Assembly: GCA_000153745.1 (NCBI GenBank)
Contig: DS022282.1
Coordinates: 1,594,816-1,658,815, forward strand
Reading direction: 5' to 3'
Source: Rhodobacterales bacterium HTCC2255
GTDB taxonomy: Bacteria; Pseudomonadota; Alphaproteobacteria; Rhodobacterales; Rhodobacteraceae
Length of the DNA stretch: 64,000 nt
The translations under genes were made by a program, and so were the position numbers. Under the pieces are notes generated by a model. The model was given only the letters and a program-made list of their open reading frames with translations, did not search any database and was not told where the DNA came from. The number at the start of each line of letters is the position of its first letter. Within the stretch, counting starts at the first letter, position 1. Below, one piece after another: positions 49,684 to 56,829 of the stretch.

Positions 49684-50334
49684 TTAGATTAAAGTACGAA
49701 TAATGTGCCTTAAAGTTGGAATTCCATCACCCTTTTCAGAAGATGTTAAAACAAATTCTGGATAAGCTGCAGGATATTTAGCTACAATTCTGCCAGTTTC
49801 AGAAATGACTTTTTCCAGATCATTTTTTTTTGGTTTGTCTGACTTTGTCAAAACGACTTGGAAAGTTACAGCTGATCTACCTAATAATTCCATAATTTCC
49901 TCATCAACTGATTTTACGCCGTGTCGCGAGTCTATGAGTAGAAATACTCTCCTCAATGAAGCTCTGCCTGATAAATACGCTTTCAATAAAGTTTGCCATT
50001 TTTTAACTACAGGTAAAGGTGCATTTGCAAAACCATATCCTGGTACATCCACCAAATAATGGCTTTCACTCAAAGTGAAAAAATTTATCTCTTGGGTGCG
50101 CCCTGGCGTATTAGATGTTCGAGCTAAAGATTTCCGACCAGTTAGTGCATTAATTAAACTTGATTTCCCTACATTTGAACGCCCTGCGAAGCAAACTTCC
50201 ATCCTGTCAGCTGGTGGCATGCCATCCATTCCTACAACACCTTTTAAAAAATCTGTAGGTTGTGAAAACAATAACCGTCCTTGCTCGGCCTCATCAGGAG
50301 TTGCATTTTCTGTGATAGTATATTGCATTTCCAT
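49684..50334 (-). CDS. engB: ribosome-biogenesis GTPase EngB (YihA/YsxC)
   Basis: A 216-residue GTPase. G1 is GRSNVGKSSLIN, G2 region ARTSNTPGRTQEINFF, G3 DVPGYGFA, and G4 TKSDK. EngB is essential for 50S ribosome assembly. Its start overlaps the MOSC gene stop (TAATG), completing the yidC-MOSC-engB order. Confidence 0.95.
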   Translation of the reverse strand: MEMQYTITENATPDEAEQGRLLFSQPTDFLKGVVGMDGMPPADRMEVCFAGRSNVGKSSLINALTGRKSLARTSNTPGRTQEINFFTLSESHYLVDVPGYGFANAPLPVVKKWQTLLKAYLSGRASLRRVFLLIDSRHGVKSVDEEIMELLGRSAVTFQVVLTKSDKPKKNDLEKVISETGRIVAKYPAAYPEFVLTSSEKGDGIPTLRHIIRTLI

Positions 50335-51080
50335 TAAACTAATTCCGCCTTATCATTGATTTTAATATAGCCAGATTTTGAAACAATACCAAACACACCA
50401 AAATTTTGATGCCCATATACTTTGTTGAGTGTGTTTAATGTATCTGCATTCGAAATAGCTGTCTCAGGATCTAGTGTCGTAGCCATGCAGCGCTCAATTG
50501 GTTCTATAATCTCTATTTCAGCAGTCCCAATACGAATTACTTTACCTATCCAATCAAATTCAGACCAAGCGGCTTCTCCATTTAGCCATATGTTTCCACG
50601 AAAGCATCTTTGGTCTAAAGGTTTATTCATACTTTTTGAAAGGTCTTCCAAAGTAGAATTAGTATGAATTGAAATTGTTTGTGCGGATGTGTCTGTAATA
50701 CCTCTGTTAGTTTTAAAAACTCTTAAAGGTAATGAACGATTTGGATTACATATCTGAATAAGCCAATTAACAAGTTTATTGCTGTCTACATCTGGGTTGA
50801 TGGTTAAGTCGTTTAGTTTTGGGTGCTTGAGTGTGATTAGTCCTGATTCTTCGTTTAAAAAAGAAGATATGGCCATCAGCTCATAGTTACTAGCCGCTCT
50901 TACAAAATTCAGACAGGACGCCCATTCTGGATTTTGGAAGTTTACTTTAGAGTTTTCATGAGCAATTGCCCAATTCCGGTCCATAGGCATACATCGCCCA
51001 CTTTCTAAAGTCACATTCCTTAGCTCTTCGCGCCCAACGCCTTTTATGGGGTGCCGCCATAAATTAGCGACAGAACCCAT
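50334..51080 (-). CDS. MOSC-domain protein
   Basis: A 248-residue protein. The N-terminal beta-barrel domain begins GSVANLWRHPIKGVGREEL, and the MOSC core contains RCFRGNIWLNG and CMATTLDPETA with its conserved cysteine. Such proteins bind molybdenum cofactor or carry sulfur, for example in molybdenum-dependent N-hydroxylated-compound reduction. Coupling by TAATG on both sides to yidC and engB is conserved in Rhodobacterales. Confidence 0.88.
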   Translation of the reverse strand: MGSVANLWRHPIKGVGREELRNVTLESGRCMPMDRNWAIAHENSKVNFQNPEWASCLNFVRAASNYELMAISSFLNEESGLITLKHPKLNDLTINPDVDSNKLVNWLIQICNPNRSLPLRVFKTNRGITDTSAQTISIHTNSTLEDLSKSMNKPLDQRCFRGNIWLNGEAAWSEFDWIGKVIRIGTAEIEIIEPIERCMATTLDPETAISNADTLNTLNKVYGHQNFGVFGIVSKSGYIKINDKAELV

Positions 51081-52918
51081 TATGTTTCTTCTTTTTTGAA
51101 GCGTTTGAACATATTTCCTAAAATATCAGGATTAACTCCTTGGCTTCTCATAATTGTATATTGCTGCATAAATGTAAGTGTATTGTTTGCAACCCAATAT
51201 ATTACTAATCCAGACGCAAAGCCGCCGAGCATAAACATAAATACCCAAGGCATCCAAGCAAAAATCATCGCTTGAGTTTTATCAGTCGGGGCAGGATTTA
51301 ATTTTTGTTGTAACCACATTGTTATGCCCATTAATATTGGCCAAACACCAATTGATAAAATAACAAAGAAACTATTTGGACCTGGTGCATCCCAAGGCAT
51401 CAATCCAAATAAATTCAACAGTGAACTTGGATCTGGGACTGATAAGTCCTTCAACCAACCTATAAAAGGAGCGTGACGTAGTTCTAAAGTTACAAAAATA
51501 ACTTTATATAATGAGAAGAAGATGGGTATTTGTAAAAGAATTGGCAAACAGCCAGCAGCAGGATTTACCTTTTTAGTTCGGTACATTTCCATTGTCGCTT
51601 TTTGCATAGCCTGACGATCTTCACCATGCTTTTCTTTAAGCTTTTCCATTTCTGGTTGTAATTCTTTCATACGTGCCATTGATACAAATGATTTATATGC
51701 CAGTGGGAATAATATAGTTTTTATAATTAGTGTCAGAGCAATAATTGCCCACCCCATGTTACCTATTAACCCATTTAAAAAATGTAGTAACGCAAACATT
51801 GGTTTAGTTATAAAAAAGAACATTCCCCAATCAATACTATCAACAAAGTCAGTAACACCTTCTTTATCACCATAGTGTTGAATTGTTGCATACTCTTTCG
51901 CACCAGCAAATAGTCTAGATTGAACGTCTCTTCTTTGTCCAGCAAGTATTTGTATGGTCTCTTGACGTGCCTCTGCTTGATATCTGTCAGCACCTTCTGT
52001 GTACTTTGATACTGCTTTAAATGCTGAGTTATCAGGGATTAATGTTGTCATCCAATACTTGCCTGTAAAGCCAATCCAACCCTTCTTAGTAGAGTCTACA
52101 ACTTTTAAGTTTGCACGTTCGGATGATGAAAAATCTTCGTCAGGCATATCGCTATAATCTATTTCTTCTAGTGATGAGCCAGTCTGAAGAACAATACCTT
52201 CGTGTAAAATGTATACGCCGTTTTTTGAGCTTTCTTGGCGCCCATAAGCAGCCCTGGCAATTGGACCTTTTTGTGCAATTAAACCGTATGGGGCTAATGA
52301 AATGTTTGCATTTGTATTATTTTGAACACTTTGAGTTATAGTGAACATATAGTCATCATCAACTTCAATTTTTCTATAAAAAACCAAGCCGTTGCTATTG
52401 TCCCATTTTAAAGTAACTGATGAATTAGGTGTTAATATATTACCATTTTCAACTGACCAAATGGTTGTAGCAGTTGGAACATCGTCAAAATCTAATGAAC
52501 CTGCGGGTGAAAACCCATGAAGAATATAATAAGCAGAAGGGCCTCCTGCCGGAGAAAGAAGTGTTACTTTTTCGGATGTATCATTTAATTTTACATTATA
52601 ATCTAATAATTTTAGGTCATCTATGCGAGCGCCTGTCAAAGATAATGAACCTTTGATACGGTTTGACCTTATCTCTACTCGTTTGGTTTTTTCTAAGGCT
52701 ATTTCACGAGTTTCTGCTACTGTTGTACTAATAGCTGGAGCGGATGCAATACCATTTCCTGCCGTTGGCGCAGCTGCGATACCGTTTTCGGATGCAGTAA
52801 TCTGATTAGTTGCCACTGGTTGATAGTCTTCTTGTGGAAAGAAATAGAACCAAGTTAAAAGCACTAGCATTGAAAGCACACTAGCTAAAATCATGTTTTT
52901 ATTGTTGTCGTCTTGCAT
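51080..52918 (-). CDS. yidC: membrane protein insertase YidC
   Basis: A 612-residue Oxa1/YidC insertase. The start chosen is MQDDNNKNMILASVL, matching relatives; a TTG 12 bases upstream is also open. An N-terminal helix with FFPQED is followed by the large periplasmic beta-domain (about 60-350) and a conserved five-helix core with WAIIALTLIIKTILFPLAYKS, YRTKKVNPAAGCLPILLQIPIF and YWVANNTLTFMQQ. It inserts membrane proteins alone or with SecYEG. Confidence 0.96.
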   Translation of the reverse strand: MQDDNNKNMILASVLSMLVLLTWFYFFPQEDYQPVATNQITASENGIAAAPTAGNGIASAPAISTTVAETREIALEKTKRVEIRSNRIKGSLSLTGARIDDLKLLDYNVKLNDTSEKVTLLSPAGGPSAYYILHGFSPAGSLDFDDVPTATTIWSVENGNILTPNSSVTLKWDNSNGLVFYRKIEVDDDYMFTITQSVQNNTNANISLAPYGLIAQKGPIARAAYGRQESSKNGVYILHEGIVLQTGSSLEEIDYSDMPDEDFSSSERANLKVVDSTKKGWIGFTGKYWMTTLIPDNSAFKAVSKYTEGADRYQAEARQETIQILAGQRRDVQSRLFAGAKEYATIQHYGDKEGVTDFVDSIDWGMFFFITKPMFALLHFLNGLIGNMGWAIIALTLIIKTILFPLAYKSFVSMARMKELQPEMEKLKEKHGEDRQAMQKATMEMYRTKKVNPAAGCLPILLQIPIFFSLYKVIFVTLELRHAPFIGWLKDLSVPDPSSLLNLFGLMPWDAPGPNSFFVILSIGVWPILMGITMWLQQKLNPAPTDKTQAMIFAWMPWVFMFMLGGFASGLVIYWVANNTLTFMQQYTIMRSQGVNPDILGNMFKRFKKEET

Positions 52919-52992
52919 TTTATGGCCCAAATAATAGTAATTTTAATTTGAGCTTGTTCAATAGATTATTGAGCAAAAGGTCAAGGGAATTG

Positions 52993-53835
52993 CTATTTAT
53001 CTTCTGCAGGATTTGGCCTGACAAGGCTATTAAAATCAAAAAGTTTTTCATCCAAGAGGTGACTAGGGCGTGCATTTGTTAAACTCTTGAACAAAATTTG
53101 CCGTCTACCAGGTGAGTTTTTTTCCCATTCATCCAATATAGCTTTAACTTGTTGTCTTTGTAGGCCATCTTGAGAGCCGCATAAATCACATGGGATAATT
53201 GGATAATTTAAAGATTTTGCAAATTTCTCACAATCAGCTTCTGCTACATGAGCAAGAGGTCTGTATACAAATAAGTCACCTTCATCGTTTACCAATTTTG
53301 GTGGCATTGTTGCTAACCGACCACCATGAAATAAATTCATAAAAAAAGTTTCCAGCATATCGTCCCTATGGTGGCCCAGAACTACTGCTGAACAGCCCTC
53401 TTCTCGAGCTATGCGATATAGGTTGCCTCGACGAAGTCTTGAACACATTGCGCAGTAAGTACGCCCGGCAGGAACTTTTTCTTTCACAATAGAATAAGTA
53501 TCTTCATATTCTATTCTATTAGGTACCCCCATTTTTTTTAGAAATTCTGGTAATACAGTTGCTGGAAAATTTGGCTGCCCTTGATCAAGGTTACAAGCAA
53601 GGATTTCAATTGGTAGCAAACCACGCCATTGAAGTTCAGTTAGAGCTGCTAACAGAGTGTAACTATCTTTTCCGCCTGATAAGCAAACTAACCATTTTTT
53701 CCCACGCTCTACCATTCCGTACTGCTCTATGGCTTCACGAGTTTGGCGAATGATCCTTTTTCGTAATTTTTTAAAATCTATTGTGCTTGGTGCACCTTCA
53801 AAAAGGGGATGGATTTCTTTTCGTTCATCTAACAT
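52993..53835 (-). CDS. ttcA: tRNA 2-thiocytidine biosynthesis protein TtcA
   Basis: A 280-residue PP-loop enzyme thiolating cytidine 32 of tRNA. The ATP pyrophosphatase loop is [12 protein letters not shown] (about 51-62), and the CxxC cluster motifs [10 protein letters not shown] and [12 protein letters not shown] are intact. It is on the same strand as yidC, 75 bases upstream of it. Confidence 0.94.
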
Positions 53836-53941
53836 AAAAATGCCTATAGCTGTTTATAATTGTGATGGCCAGTCAATGAGACTTGTGATTATAATAATTA
53901 TAATTAAAACATGTTCCACACAATTTTCCTGAAAGTAATTT

Positions 53942-54832
53942 ATGAATAATTTCAAAGGTATTTTATTGATGTTGATAGCTATGGCTGGCTTCACAATGGA
54001 AGATTTATTCATGAAAAAGCTTTCTGTGAATTTATCAACAGGACAGATTTTAATTACATTGGGCTTTGGAAGTAGTTTAGTATTTGCGCTAATGGCAAAA
54101 AGCAAAGGGTATAAGCTTACTGCAAAGATCTTTTGGTCAAAAGGTATGTTAATTCGTCAATTTGCCGAAGGAATAGCAGCCATAGCATTCATTACGTCTT
54201 TGACACTTATTCCACTTTCGACTGTTGCTGCTGTTTTTCAAGCAACTCCATTAGTAATTACAATGGGCGCTGCACTATTCTTGGGTGAAGCAGTTGGGTG
54301 GCGTCGATGGTTGGCAATAATTGTAGGTCTTATAGGTGTTTTAATTATAATTAGACCAGGACTGAATTCTTTTGATCCAAATGTAGGTTATGTTCTTATT
54401 GCAGTATTATTTGTTACTGTTCGTGATTTGATTACTAGAAAGTTACCAATGAATGTGCCGTCTACAATTGTTTCTTTTCAGGCTTTTGCATCATTGATAA
54501 TCGCTGGTGGTATTTTAATTTTTTTAAGTGATCAAAAAATTGTTGGTTTAGACAAAAATCAAATTTATTTTGTATTGGGTGGTATAATATTTGGTGTTAT
54601 TGGATATTATTGTATTGTCGCTTCAACACGTATAGGCGAAGCTGGAGTTGTAACACCATTTCGATATTCTCGTTTATTATTCGCAATAATTATTGGATTT
54701 TTGTTTTTCAATGAACGACCAGATTTTTTGACACTGCTTGGGGCAAGTATTGTAATCATGACTGGTATTTATACTGTATTGAGAGAGAGACATTTGGCGC
54801 GTAGATCACGCGCCAAAATGTTTAACAATTAA
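53942..54832 (+). CDS. DMT-superfamily (EamA-type) membrane transporter
   Basis: A 296-residue protein with ten membrane segments in two EamA repeats, beginning MNNFKGILLMLIAMAGFTMEDLF; the LIPLSTVAAVFQATPLVITMGA stretch marks the first repeat. The substrate is unknown. Its C-terminal coding sequence includes a GC-rich inverted repeat (54793-54817) and runs 11 bases into the convergent creatinase gene. A local pairing with creatinase is possible but cannot be shown. Confidence 0.85.
   Translation: MNNFKGILLMLIAMAGFTMEDLFMKKLSVNLSTGQILITLGFGSSLVFALMAKSKGYKLTAKIFWSKGMLIRQFAEGIAAIAFITSLTLIPLSTVAAVFQATPLVITMGAALFLGEAVGWRRWLAIIVGLIGVLIIIRPGLNSFDPNVGYVLIAVLFVTVRDLITRKLPMNVPSTIVSFQAFASLIIAGGILIFLSDQKIVGLDKNQIYFVLGGIIFGVIGYYCIVASTRIGEAGVVTPFRYSRLLFAIIIGFLFFNERPDFLTLLGASIVIMTGIYTVLRERHLARRSRAKMFNN
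54793..54817. terminator. GC-rich inverted repeat at the convergent gene junction
   Basis: TTTGGCGCG and CGCGCCAAA form a perfect nine-bp stem with a seven-base loop inside the last codons of the DMT gene and just beyond the creatinase stop. The GC-rich stem with flanking A and T stretches could terminate creatinase transcription, but the coding role of the same bases weakens this. Confidence 0.35.
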
Positions 54833-56039
54833 CAATATTGTGTTCTGGGCCGTAGGGAAACATTGTGATGTTTTCAACACCACCATCATGCAGTACCAAA
54901 ATATCATGTTCGCGATAACCACCACCGGCTGTATTATTGTCTGGAATTGTTATCATAGGTTCCATTGATACTACCATATTAGATGTAAGCTCTGTATCGA
55001 TGTCTTCTCTGAGTTCCAACCCAGCTTCGCGTCCATAATAATGTGACAGGACACCAAAAGAATGCCCGTATCCAAAGCTACGATATTGCAATAGATTTTT
55101 TTCTTCAAAAAGAGAGTTAATTTCTGCAGTTATTCCAGAACAAGTAGCACCTTCTTTGATTAGTGATATGCCAAGTTCGTGAGCCTCTATATTAGCTTCC
55201 CAAACTTTTAAACTTTCTTTATTTGGTTCACCAATAAATAGTGTTCTTTCTAAAGCTGTATAATATCCTGATATCATTGGAAATGTATTAAGAGATAGAA
55301 TATCTCCTTCTACTAATTTTCGTGTTGTAACTGGGTTGTGAGCACCATCAGTATTTACCCCAGATTGGAACCATACCCAAGTATCCCTCAATTCAGAGTG
55401 TGGAAAAGATTTGGCAATTTCAAATTCCATTGCATCTCGACCTGCCATAGCTATGTCAATTTCACGTGCGCCCACACTTATTGCATCATGAATAGCAAAG
55501 CCACCAATATCAGCTATTCTTGCGCCTTGACGAATTAATTCAAGTTCATCATTTGACTTAATCATACGCTGCTTCATGGAAGCAGGAGCAACATCTACAA
55601 TTTTATTTGGGCTTAAAAATTCATTCAACTTCGATTGTTGAACTATGGTGAGATGATCTGCTTCCATTCCAATTATATCTGCATTGCTAATACATGATTT
55701 CACGGCTCTCCAGAAATTATCTCTTTTCCAGTCTGAATAAATAATATTTTCAGTTGATGAGCGCCTTGCAGGCTGACCGCCGTCGATACCTGCTGATATT
55801 GTATATGCATGGTCGTGGGTTACAACACAAGCATATGGTCGCCCAAATGAACAATAAGTAAATCCAGTATAATAAGAGACACAATGCATAGAAGTAAGAA
55901 CTGTGGCTTCTATTCCCATTTCAATCATTATATTTCTCAAGCCATTAATGCGCAAATCATATTCAGCTTGTGAAAATTGCAATGGTGGCTTCTCACCATT
56001 TTCAAATTTATAAAAATCTTTACGTGTTGAAAGAGTCAT
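54822..56039 (-). CDS. creatinase (creatine amidinohydrolase)
   Basis: A 405-residue pita-bread-fold protein close in length to Pseudomonas creatinase (403). Long identical-looking stretches include YCSFGRPYA, IDGGQP, NTDGAHNPVTTRK, SGYYTALERTLF, YGREAGLELREDIDT and VVSMEPMI. All residues known from the Pseudomonas enzyme have counterparts: Phe65, Arg67, His234 (catalytic), Tyr260, Glu264, Arg337, Glu360. Creatinase hydrolyses creatine to sarcosine and urea. The M24 metal ligands are not all present, as expected for creatinase. It is inserted between yidD and ttcA/yidC; GGAGGA lies 10 bases before the ATG, behind an inverted-repeat-rich leader. Confidence 0.93.
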   Translation of the reverse strand: MTLSTRKDFYKFENGEKPPLQFSQAEYDLRINGLRNIMIEMGIEATVLTSMHCVSYYTGFTYCSFGRPYACVVTHDHAYTISAGIDGGQPARRSSTENIIYSDWKRDNFWRAVKSCISNADIIGMEADHLTIVQQSKLNEFLSPNKIVDVAPASMKQRMIKSNDELELIRQGARIADIGGFAIHDAISVGAREIDIAMAGRDAMEFEIAKSFPHSELRDTWVWFQSGVNTDGAHNPVTTRKLVEGDILSLNTFPMISGYYTALERTLFIGEPNKESLKVWEANIEAHELGISLIKEGATCSGITAEINSLFEEKNLLQYRSFGYGHSFGVLSHYYGREAGLELREDIDTELTSNMVVSMEPMITIPDNNTAGGGYREHDILVLHDGGVENITMFPYGPEHNIVNC

Positions 56040-56049
56040 TTTCGATTTA

Positions 56050-56140
56050 TCCTCCGATTTATTGGGGACAAATTATAATCCCCAGCAAAATGTCCGGGCG
56101 TTCAGGACATAAAGTTGAAGATTAGGCGACGCCATCGCCT
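56050..56140 (-). promoter_or_regulatory. creatinase leader: three inverted repeats and a TATAAT box
   Basis: Reading along the minus strand: AGGCGA/TCGCCT (56124-56140, loop TGGCG), ATGTCC/GGACAT (56090-56110, loop TGAACGCCC), TGGGGA/TCCCCA (56063-56084), then GGAGGA (56050-56055). A TATAAT (56072-56077) sits in the third loop and no clear -35 precedes it. The first two loops share the complementary tetramers GGCG and CGCC. The repeats may be operator sites of an activator-dependent promoter or a folded mRNA leader; the sequence alone does not decide. Confidence 0.5.
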
Positions 56141-56209
56141 CATTTACTTTTTAATAATATTTTGCGTTAGACTTCTATTTCAAAAACGACAATTTATTTA
56201 TCTAAATGG

Positions 56210-56431
56210 TTAATCAGGAACGTTATCGACACCTGAACTGCCCCATGGGTGGCACCTAAAAATTCTTTTTGTAGCAAGCCAGGATCCCTTTATGCCACCA
56301 TGCTTTTCTAAAGCTTCCAATGCGTATGCGGAGCAAGTTGGATGATATCTGCAATTACAACCAACCCATGGACTAAATATTAATCGATAAGCTCTAATAG
56401 GCAACATACAGATGTAGCTAAATGGAGTCAT
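56210..56431 (-). CDS. yidD: membrane protein insertion efficiency factor YidD
   Basis: A 73-residue YidD. The family core [20 protein letters not shown] with cysteines and the following [33 protein letters not shown] tail are intact. It supports insertion of membrane proteins by YidC. It follows rnpA with a four-base overlap. yidC itself is displaced about 3.5 kb away by the creatinase, DMT and ttcA genes. Confidence 0.94.
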
Positions 56432-56829
56432 TTATGAATCTTTTGCAATGCATAAGTTAGATCGTTTTTTAACTTTATAAAATCTCTTGAGGCAGTAACT
56501 TCTTTTTTTCCAATCAAGACATAATCCCAACCTTTTTTTGCAGAAGAAATAAGAATGAGATTTGTAATTTCACGTAACCGCCTTTTGGCGCGATTTCTTG
56601 CAACAGCATTACCAACTTTTTTTGAGCATGTGAAACCAACCCGGATGGTTTGATCGTCATCATTTCGATTTCTTGCTTGAAGTAAAAAGCCTTTAACCCC
56701 AAGCCTCTTTGCGTGAGAAGCCTGAATAAAATCGCTACGTTTCGTAATTCGTTTTACACATGAAAAAACCGCCGGTTGCGTCGCACCAGCTCCCTTTTGG
56801 GTGCTTGATGTCGCCTTGGGCGGTTTCAT
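56428..56829 (-). CDS. rnpA: ribonuclease P protein component
   Basis: A 133-residue RNase P protein. An N-terminal extension of about 25 residues precedes the core [14 protein letters not shown], and the family signature [17 protein letters not shown] carries the basic RNR motif. It joins RNase P RNA to process tRNA 5' ends. AAGGGA seven bases before the ATG is buried in a hairpin that spans the rpmH stop (56831-56856). Confidence 0.94.

Follow-up and report, generated by a model that had tools for sequence, protein, structure and literature searches.

The window analyzed here is a stretch of 64,000 nucleotides (C1:1594816-1658815) from the genome of Rhodobacterales bacterium HTCC2255, whose two-contig assembly totals 2,296,803 bases, with a listed completeness of 99.75% and contamination of 3.35%. 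Within a run of housekeeping genes, the window contains a reading frame for a predicted creatinase (Table 1). A first-pass annotation, made from the sequence alone, had delimited this reading frame exactly and given no strand; the gene is real and lies on the minus strand, and the plus strand has many stops. The neighbors that it had listed, rpmH-rnpA-yidD on one side and ttcA/yidC on the other, are also as described, and all of them are on the minus strand. The names rpmH, rnpA and yidC are our presumptive assignments from sequence and gene order.

Table 1. Genes at the creatinase locus, in window coordinates
Feature	Position	Strand	Basis or remark
rpmH, ribosomal protein L34	56853..56987	-	presumed from sequence
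rnpA	56428..56829	-	presumed from sequence and position
yidD	56210..56431	-	TIGR00278, 76 bits against a cut-off of 40
Creatinase (creatine amidinohydrolase), 405 aa	54822..56039	-	predicted; ATG start, GGAGG upstream
EamA/DMT-family transporter	53942..54832	+	scan; cargo of the sub-clade
ttcA, tRNA 2-thiocytidine(32) synthetase	52993..53835	-	NF007972, 423 bits against a cut-off of 272
yidC	51080..52930	-	presumed from sequence and position
MOSC-domain protein	50334..51080		between yidC and a ysxC-like GTPase gene

The creatinase gene is separated by 170 bp from yidD, which forms the upstream border of the site, and ttcA forms the downstream border. Between creatinase and ttcA, a gene for an EamA/DMT-family transporter lies tail-to-tail with creatinase and overlaps its 3' end by 11 bp. 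The promoter/terminator scan was uninformative, as 14.2 promoter-like sites were expected and 9 returned, and 2.8 terminator-like sites were expected and 3 returned. Further along, the gene for the MOSC-domain protein is found at the same place in many of the regions that we fetched from the genus.

Identity of the predicted creatinase

Searching PDB chains with phmmer gave three creatine amidinohydrolases as the best matches to the window protein (7yto, E 5.3e-149; 1chm, 3.9e-145; 1kp0, 9.9e-140), and the next match after the creatinases was a prolidase with an E value of 3.5e-20. Identity is 56% over 393 aligned residues to 1CHM and 57% over 394 to 7YTO. The Pfam domains PF01321 (Creatinase_N) and PF00557 (Peptidase_M24) are both present above cut-off. 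Ten NCBIfam families match the reading frame. Every one scores far short of its cut-off, and no creatinase is among their names. Of the matches listed, the closest ones from named sources belong to Rhodobacterales UBA7416 (84%) and to Amylibacter and Neptunicoccus (71-76% across the best segment).

The first-pass annotation had described a creatinase with a complete active site, and the alignment bears this out. All 13 of the pocket columns checked are identical in the window protein (P0001), 1CHM, 7YTO and 109 of 109 homologue rows, which are the best-scoring relatives rather than a broad sample and include 13 rows more than 97% identical to another row. Residues F65, R67, H234, Y260, E264, R337 and E360 of P0001 align with F62, R64, H232, Y258, E262, R335 and E358 of 1CHM. 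We take these seven residues to serve substrate binding and catalysis in 1CHM, whose numbering was fixed by matching known residues; the identity of the columns is computed. The metal site of the M24 fold is a separate matter. Xaa-Pro dipeptidase and aminopeptidase P bind metal through D, D, H, E and E. In P0001, three of these columns (D, D and E) are occupied by N251, A262 and H378, and the same replacements occur in 1CHM and in 109 of 109 rows. The remaining two ligands, H326 and E360, are kept, as in 1CHM.

We also built a tree of 20 rows, in which a branch with 99/99 support splits 14 selected creatinases from the six further M24 proteins encoded in the window's genome. The outgroup rows are long-branched and may join falsely, which makes the joins among outgroups unreliable. 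P0001 groups with the creatinases, which answers the tree comparison proposed in the first-pass annotation, and stands apart from the genome's own DddP. Its identity to the six other M24 proteins is only 19-24%, and columns of M24 proteins at such distances (~20% identity) are unreliable. The six include a DddP (L007, at G000:C1:109743-110369; 819 bits against a cut-off of 600), a type of enzyme described as an M24-fold metalloenzyme in PMC4108388, and a DoeA-like protein that falls below its cut-off (L005, 541 against 613).

Two other identities for the protein have to be weighed. An Xaa-Pro peptidase, DddP or ectoine hydrolase that merely resembles creatinase would carry the same M24 and Creatinase_N domains, which are common to both, and NCBIfam gives weak matches to PepQ and DoeA, both well under cut-off, that point the same way. 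However, the low identity to the genome's six M24 proteins, the absence of three of five metal ligands and the 99/99 creatinase branch make such an enzyme extremely unlikely. We rejected DddP in particular because the P0001 hits at E 0.001 do not include NF043017, the metal ligands are missing and the genome's DddP lies elsewhere, and we rejected Xaa-Pro dipeptidase and aminopeptidase P on the three absent ligands. The protein could instead be a creatinase-fold enzyme acting chiefly on another guanidino compound, such as guanidinoacetate, since an identity of 56-57% leaves room for substrate drift outside the 13 checked columns and no creatine-specific neighbor was recognized at the locus. Against this, every checked column is invariant. 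Additionally, when we surveyed the neighbors of the best 80 of at least 582 confirmed named creatinase loci, using flanks of up to 6 kb, sox-cluster genes were present in the flanks of 10, and a Roseobacter is stated to grow on creatine (a passage of PMC8864220, citing Wawrik 2017). We regard a different main substrate as improbable. On the basis of homology, pocket columns, lost metal ligands and the tree, we accept the gene as that of a predicted ordinary, metal-independent creatinase.

A variable-cargo site between yidD and ttcA

To place the locus in the genus, we compared 33 genus genomes, of which 27 contain creatinase, the window's genome (G000) included. Matches in the genus-mates are mostly 66-90% identical to the window protein. 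In 22 of the 27, creatinase is linked to ttcA and/or yidD, and the same linkage is found down to about 69-70% identity. In 19 genomes, creatinase and ttcA share a contig and are no more than 5.1 kb apart (in G005 only a piece of creatinase is involved); a creatinase end adjoins ttcA at a contig end in G020, the gene adjoins yidD and the DMT gene at a contig end in G027, and it sits beside yidD, away from ttcA, in G009. The other five creatinases of the genus were not placed at the site. Those of G010, G015 and G024 are on another contig, and each of these genomes has its own yidD-ttcA site without creatinase; that of G032 is ~126 kb from ttcA and 55% identical; and no ttcA was found in G012. 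One genus region (L183, G025:C23) has yidD and creatinase inverted together between ttcA and rnpA.

The same site can be examined where creatinase is missing from it. We collected 24 creatinase-free ttcA regions. Twenty of them were divided between the genus (seven) and other genera of its family (thirteen), and the remaining four were those of G009, G010, G015 and G024. Both borders are visible in 21 of them, yidD being absent from the regions of G008 (which ends at a contig end), G050 and G009. Nine of the 21 have a near-empty junction, with about 30-250 bp separating the yidD and ttcA matches; one is G026, from the same genus, and eight represent other genera. The other 12 have 0.6-2.9 kb of other DNA there, which in G017 is the DMT gene. 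The yidD-ttcA interval (53835-56210 in the window; regions L154-L176) holds differing cargo in different relatives. It is a variable-cargo site, like a small insertion-prone spot in a housekeeping cluster.

The DMT gene occurs at the site in seven creatinase-bearing genomes, which are the window's sub-clade (G000, G002, G007, G022, G023, G027 and G029), and in G017 without creatinase. This distribution led us to reject the transporter as a creatine partner, and it does not support the earlier suggestion that the two genes were inserted together.

We examined relationships within the creatinases using a larger tree of 105 rows, kept from 118 after dropping 13 that were more than 97% identical to a kept row. 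The tree was used only within the creatinases because its outgroup branch lengths are absurd (10). Genus-mates fall inside a 22-row set that includes Thermohalobaculum (SH-aLRT 95), or are near-copies of rows in it. Neither tree includes four of the 27 genus creatinases, namely those of G005 (two fragments), G012, G024 and G032.

The first-pass annotation had read the locus as an acquired insertion. In its strongest form, this would be a recent horizontal acquisition by the strain together with the DMT transporter, and it is favored by the nine relatives, G026 from the genus itself among them, whose yidD and ttcA nearly abut with no creatinase between them. However, the linkage is common to genus members as divergent as about 69-70% in creatinase identity, the same-genus creatinases placed in the larger tree belong to the 22-row set or are near-copies of its members, and the DMT gene of G017 stands without creatinase. 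The composition of the gene is also host-like, with a GC content of 0.373 and a GC3 of 0.234 that are within the range of its neighbors. Because the gene is retained at or next to this position in most of the genus-mates searched, the creatinase is not a fresh insertion, and a recent acquisition by this strain is highly implausible. What survives of the earlier claim is that the gene is inserted relative to its near-empty relatives; what does not is that this is peculiar to the genome, given the linkage in 22 of 27 and the host-like composition. Creatinase probably entered the yidD-ttcA interval at an early stage of the genus and has mostly stayed there. The shared position is computed, and the early date is what it makes probable.

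Predicted fate of sarcosine and urea

The predicted enzyme would hydrolyze creatine to sarcosine and urea. Sarcosine could then be converted to glycine and a one-carbon unit by one of two heterotetrameric-type sarcosine oxidases, as the genome contains two soxB genes (658 and 635 bits against a cut-off of 529) and two soxA genes (1260 and 1324 against 1164) above cut-off. The sox loci also contain soxD twice and soxG once, in each case as a match below cut-off, and the second gamma candidate had no family match at E 1e-20.

The urea side looks different. The single urease alpha model had no match in the genome (as a control, it scored above cut-off in 3 of 14 named genomes), and creatininase had none either (control found in 6 of 14). 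Urea carboxylase gave eight matches, none above cut-off and the best at 553 bits against 1304 (control above cut-off in 1 of 14), which we read as pieces of other enzymes, and UrtA gave two, again with none above cut-off (best 72 bits against 493). Because neither urease nor urea carboxylase was found, urea is probably lost: it would remain unassimilated and leave the cell. The creatine route envisaged in the first-pass annotation, and the search of the genome that it recommended, thus come out divided, with two sarcosine oxidase loci on one side and no urease, urea carboxylase or creatininase on the other. We infer activity on creatine and the loss of urea; the computation does not itself show them.

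No creatine importer was recognized beside the window creatinase. In the neighbor survey, in which each cluster was named by scanning a single member, PotABC-like ABC transporter clusters contribute at least one gene at 15 of the best 80 loci (of at least 582) and two or more at 12. The ABC binding protein of the neighbor cluster had no NCBIfam family match at E 1e-20. The best candidate importer in the window's genome is a homologue of the ABC cluster that adjoins creatinase in Sulfitobacter and Aliiroseovarius, with a binding protein 71% identical over residues 10-218. The two ends of contig C1 each carry part of this PotABC-like candidate (L193, 15359-17226; L194, 1-2251), and its binding-protein gene is broken, with the halves in inconsistent orientation, possibly reflecting an assembly join. 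The survey also returned a frequent neighbor family (cluster 1, 29 reading frames), which we set aside as a presumed antisense frame of creatinase in G+C-rich genomes.

Other genes of the genome were recorded in passing. DmdA matches twice, at 521 bits (above the cut-off of 410) and at 392 bits (narrowly under it), and a TMAO demethylase scores above cut-off (1189 against 1100), all among L147, L151 and L152. Fifteen GCV_T-domain matches occur in this 2.3 Mb genome, several of them in fused proteins of about 800-860 residues, whose NCBIfam matches at E 1e-20 are below cut-off except for the TMAO demethylase.

We then asked how urease is distributed in the genus. Among the 27 creatinase-bearing genomes, urease is above cut-off in 12, present as fragments below cut-off in one (G005) and without a match in 14, the window's genome among them; 10 of these 14 are at least 90% complete. 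In the six creatinase-free genomes, urease is above cut-off in none, with weak matches in two (G008 and G018). Counting the fragmented case, urease thus accompanies creatinase in 13 of 27 genomes versus 0 of 6 without creatinase (Fisher p 0.06, uncorrected for kinship), a co-occurrence that is only suggestive.

Taken together, our results make it highly probable that the locus encodes a standard creatinase, one probably placed early in the genus, whose sarcosine would be oxidized and whose urea would probably be lost. The broader proposal, that a marine Rhodobacterales lineage takes sarcosine from creatine, gaining one nitrogen, glycine and one-carbon units, and discards urea, is tentative, and we would put it at a little under an even chance. 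If it is true, creatinase-bearing cells that lack urease would supply urea to neighbors that have the enzyme. Likewise, if the urease-free members excrete urea, creatine would be a small route from animal or plankton nitrogen to seawater urea.

Comparison with known creatine systems

Published work already documents the use of creatine in marine bacteria, among them a Roseobacter. In passages of the respective papers, a SAR11 gene cluster is named creatinase and creatine-to-glycine genes are enriched in the Red Sea (PMC3686209), sponge microbiomes contain creatinase and urease genes (PMC6742649), and AEGEAN169 has the potential to use creatine and urea (PMC11366302); an Alcaligenes creatinase is the subject of PMC7568399. 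A search of the open-access literature for creatinase together with Rhodobacteraceae found no papers. To known marine creatine use, the present locus adds a positionally conserved case that is common to most of the searched genus members, and it leaves unchanged what creatinase is and how it works.

The window creatinase is homologous over its full length to the creatinases 1CHM (from Pseudomonas putida), 7YTO and 1KP0. It shares the residues at the 13 columns with 1CHM and 7YTO and the loss of metal ligands with 1CHM, whereas 43-44% of aligned residues differ from 1CHM and 7YTO and the genomic setting is different. The creatinases of Amylibacter, Neptunicoccus and the genus-mates are closer, mostly with the same ttcA/yidD linkage, although the adjoining cargo varies. 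A physiological parallel is Roseobacter denitrificans OCh114, which is likewise marine and, in a figure legend of PMC8864220, has a creatine gene cluster with a heterotetrameric sarcosine oxidase. The same source states, citing Wawrik 2017, that R. denitrificans uses creatine as a nitrogen source for growth.
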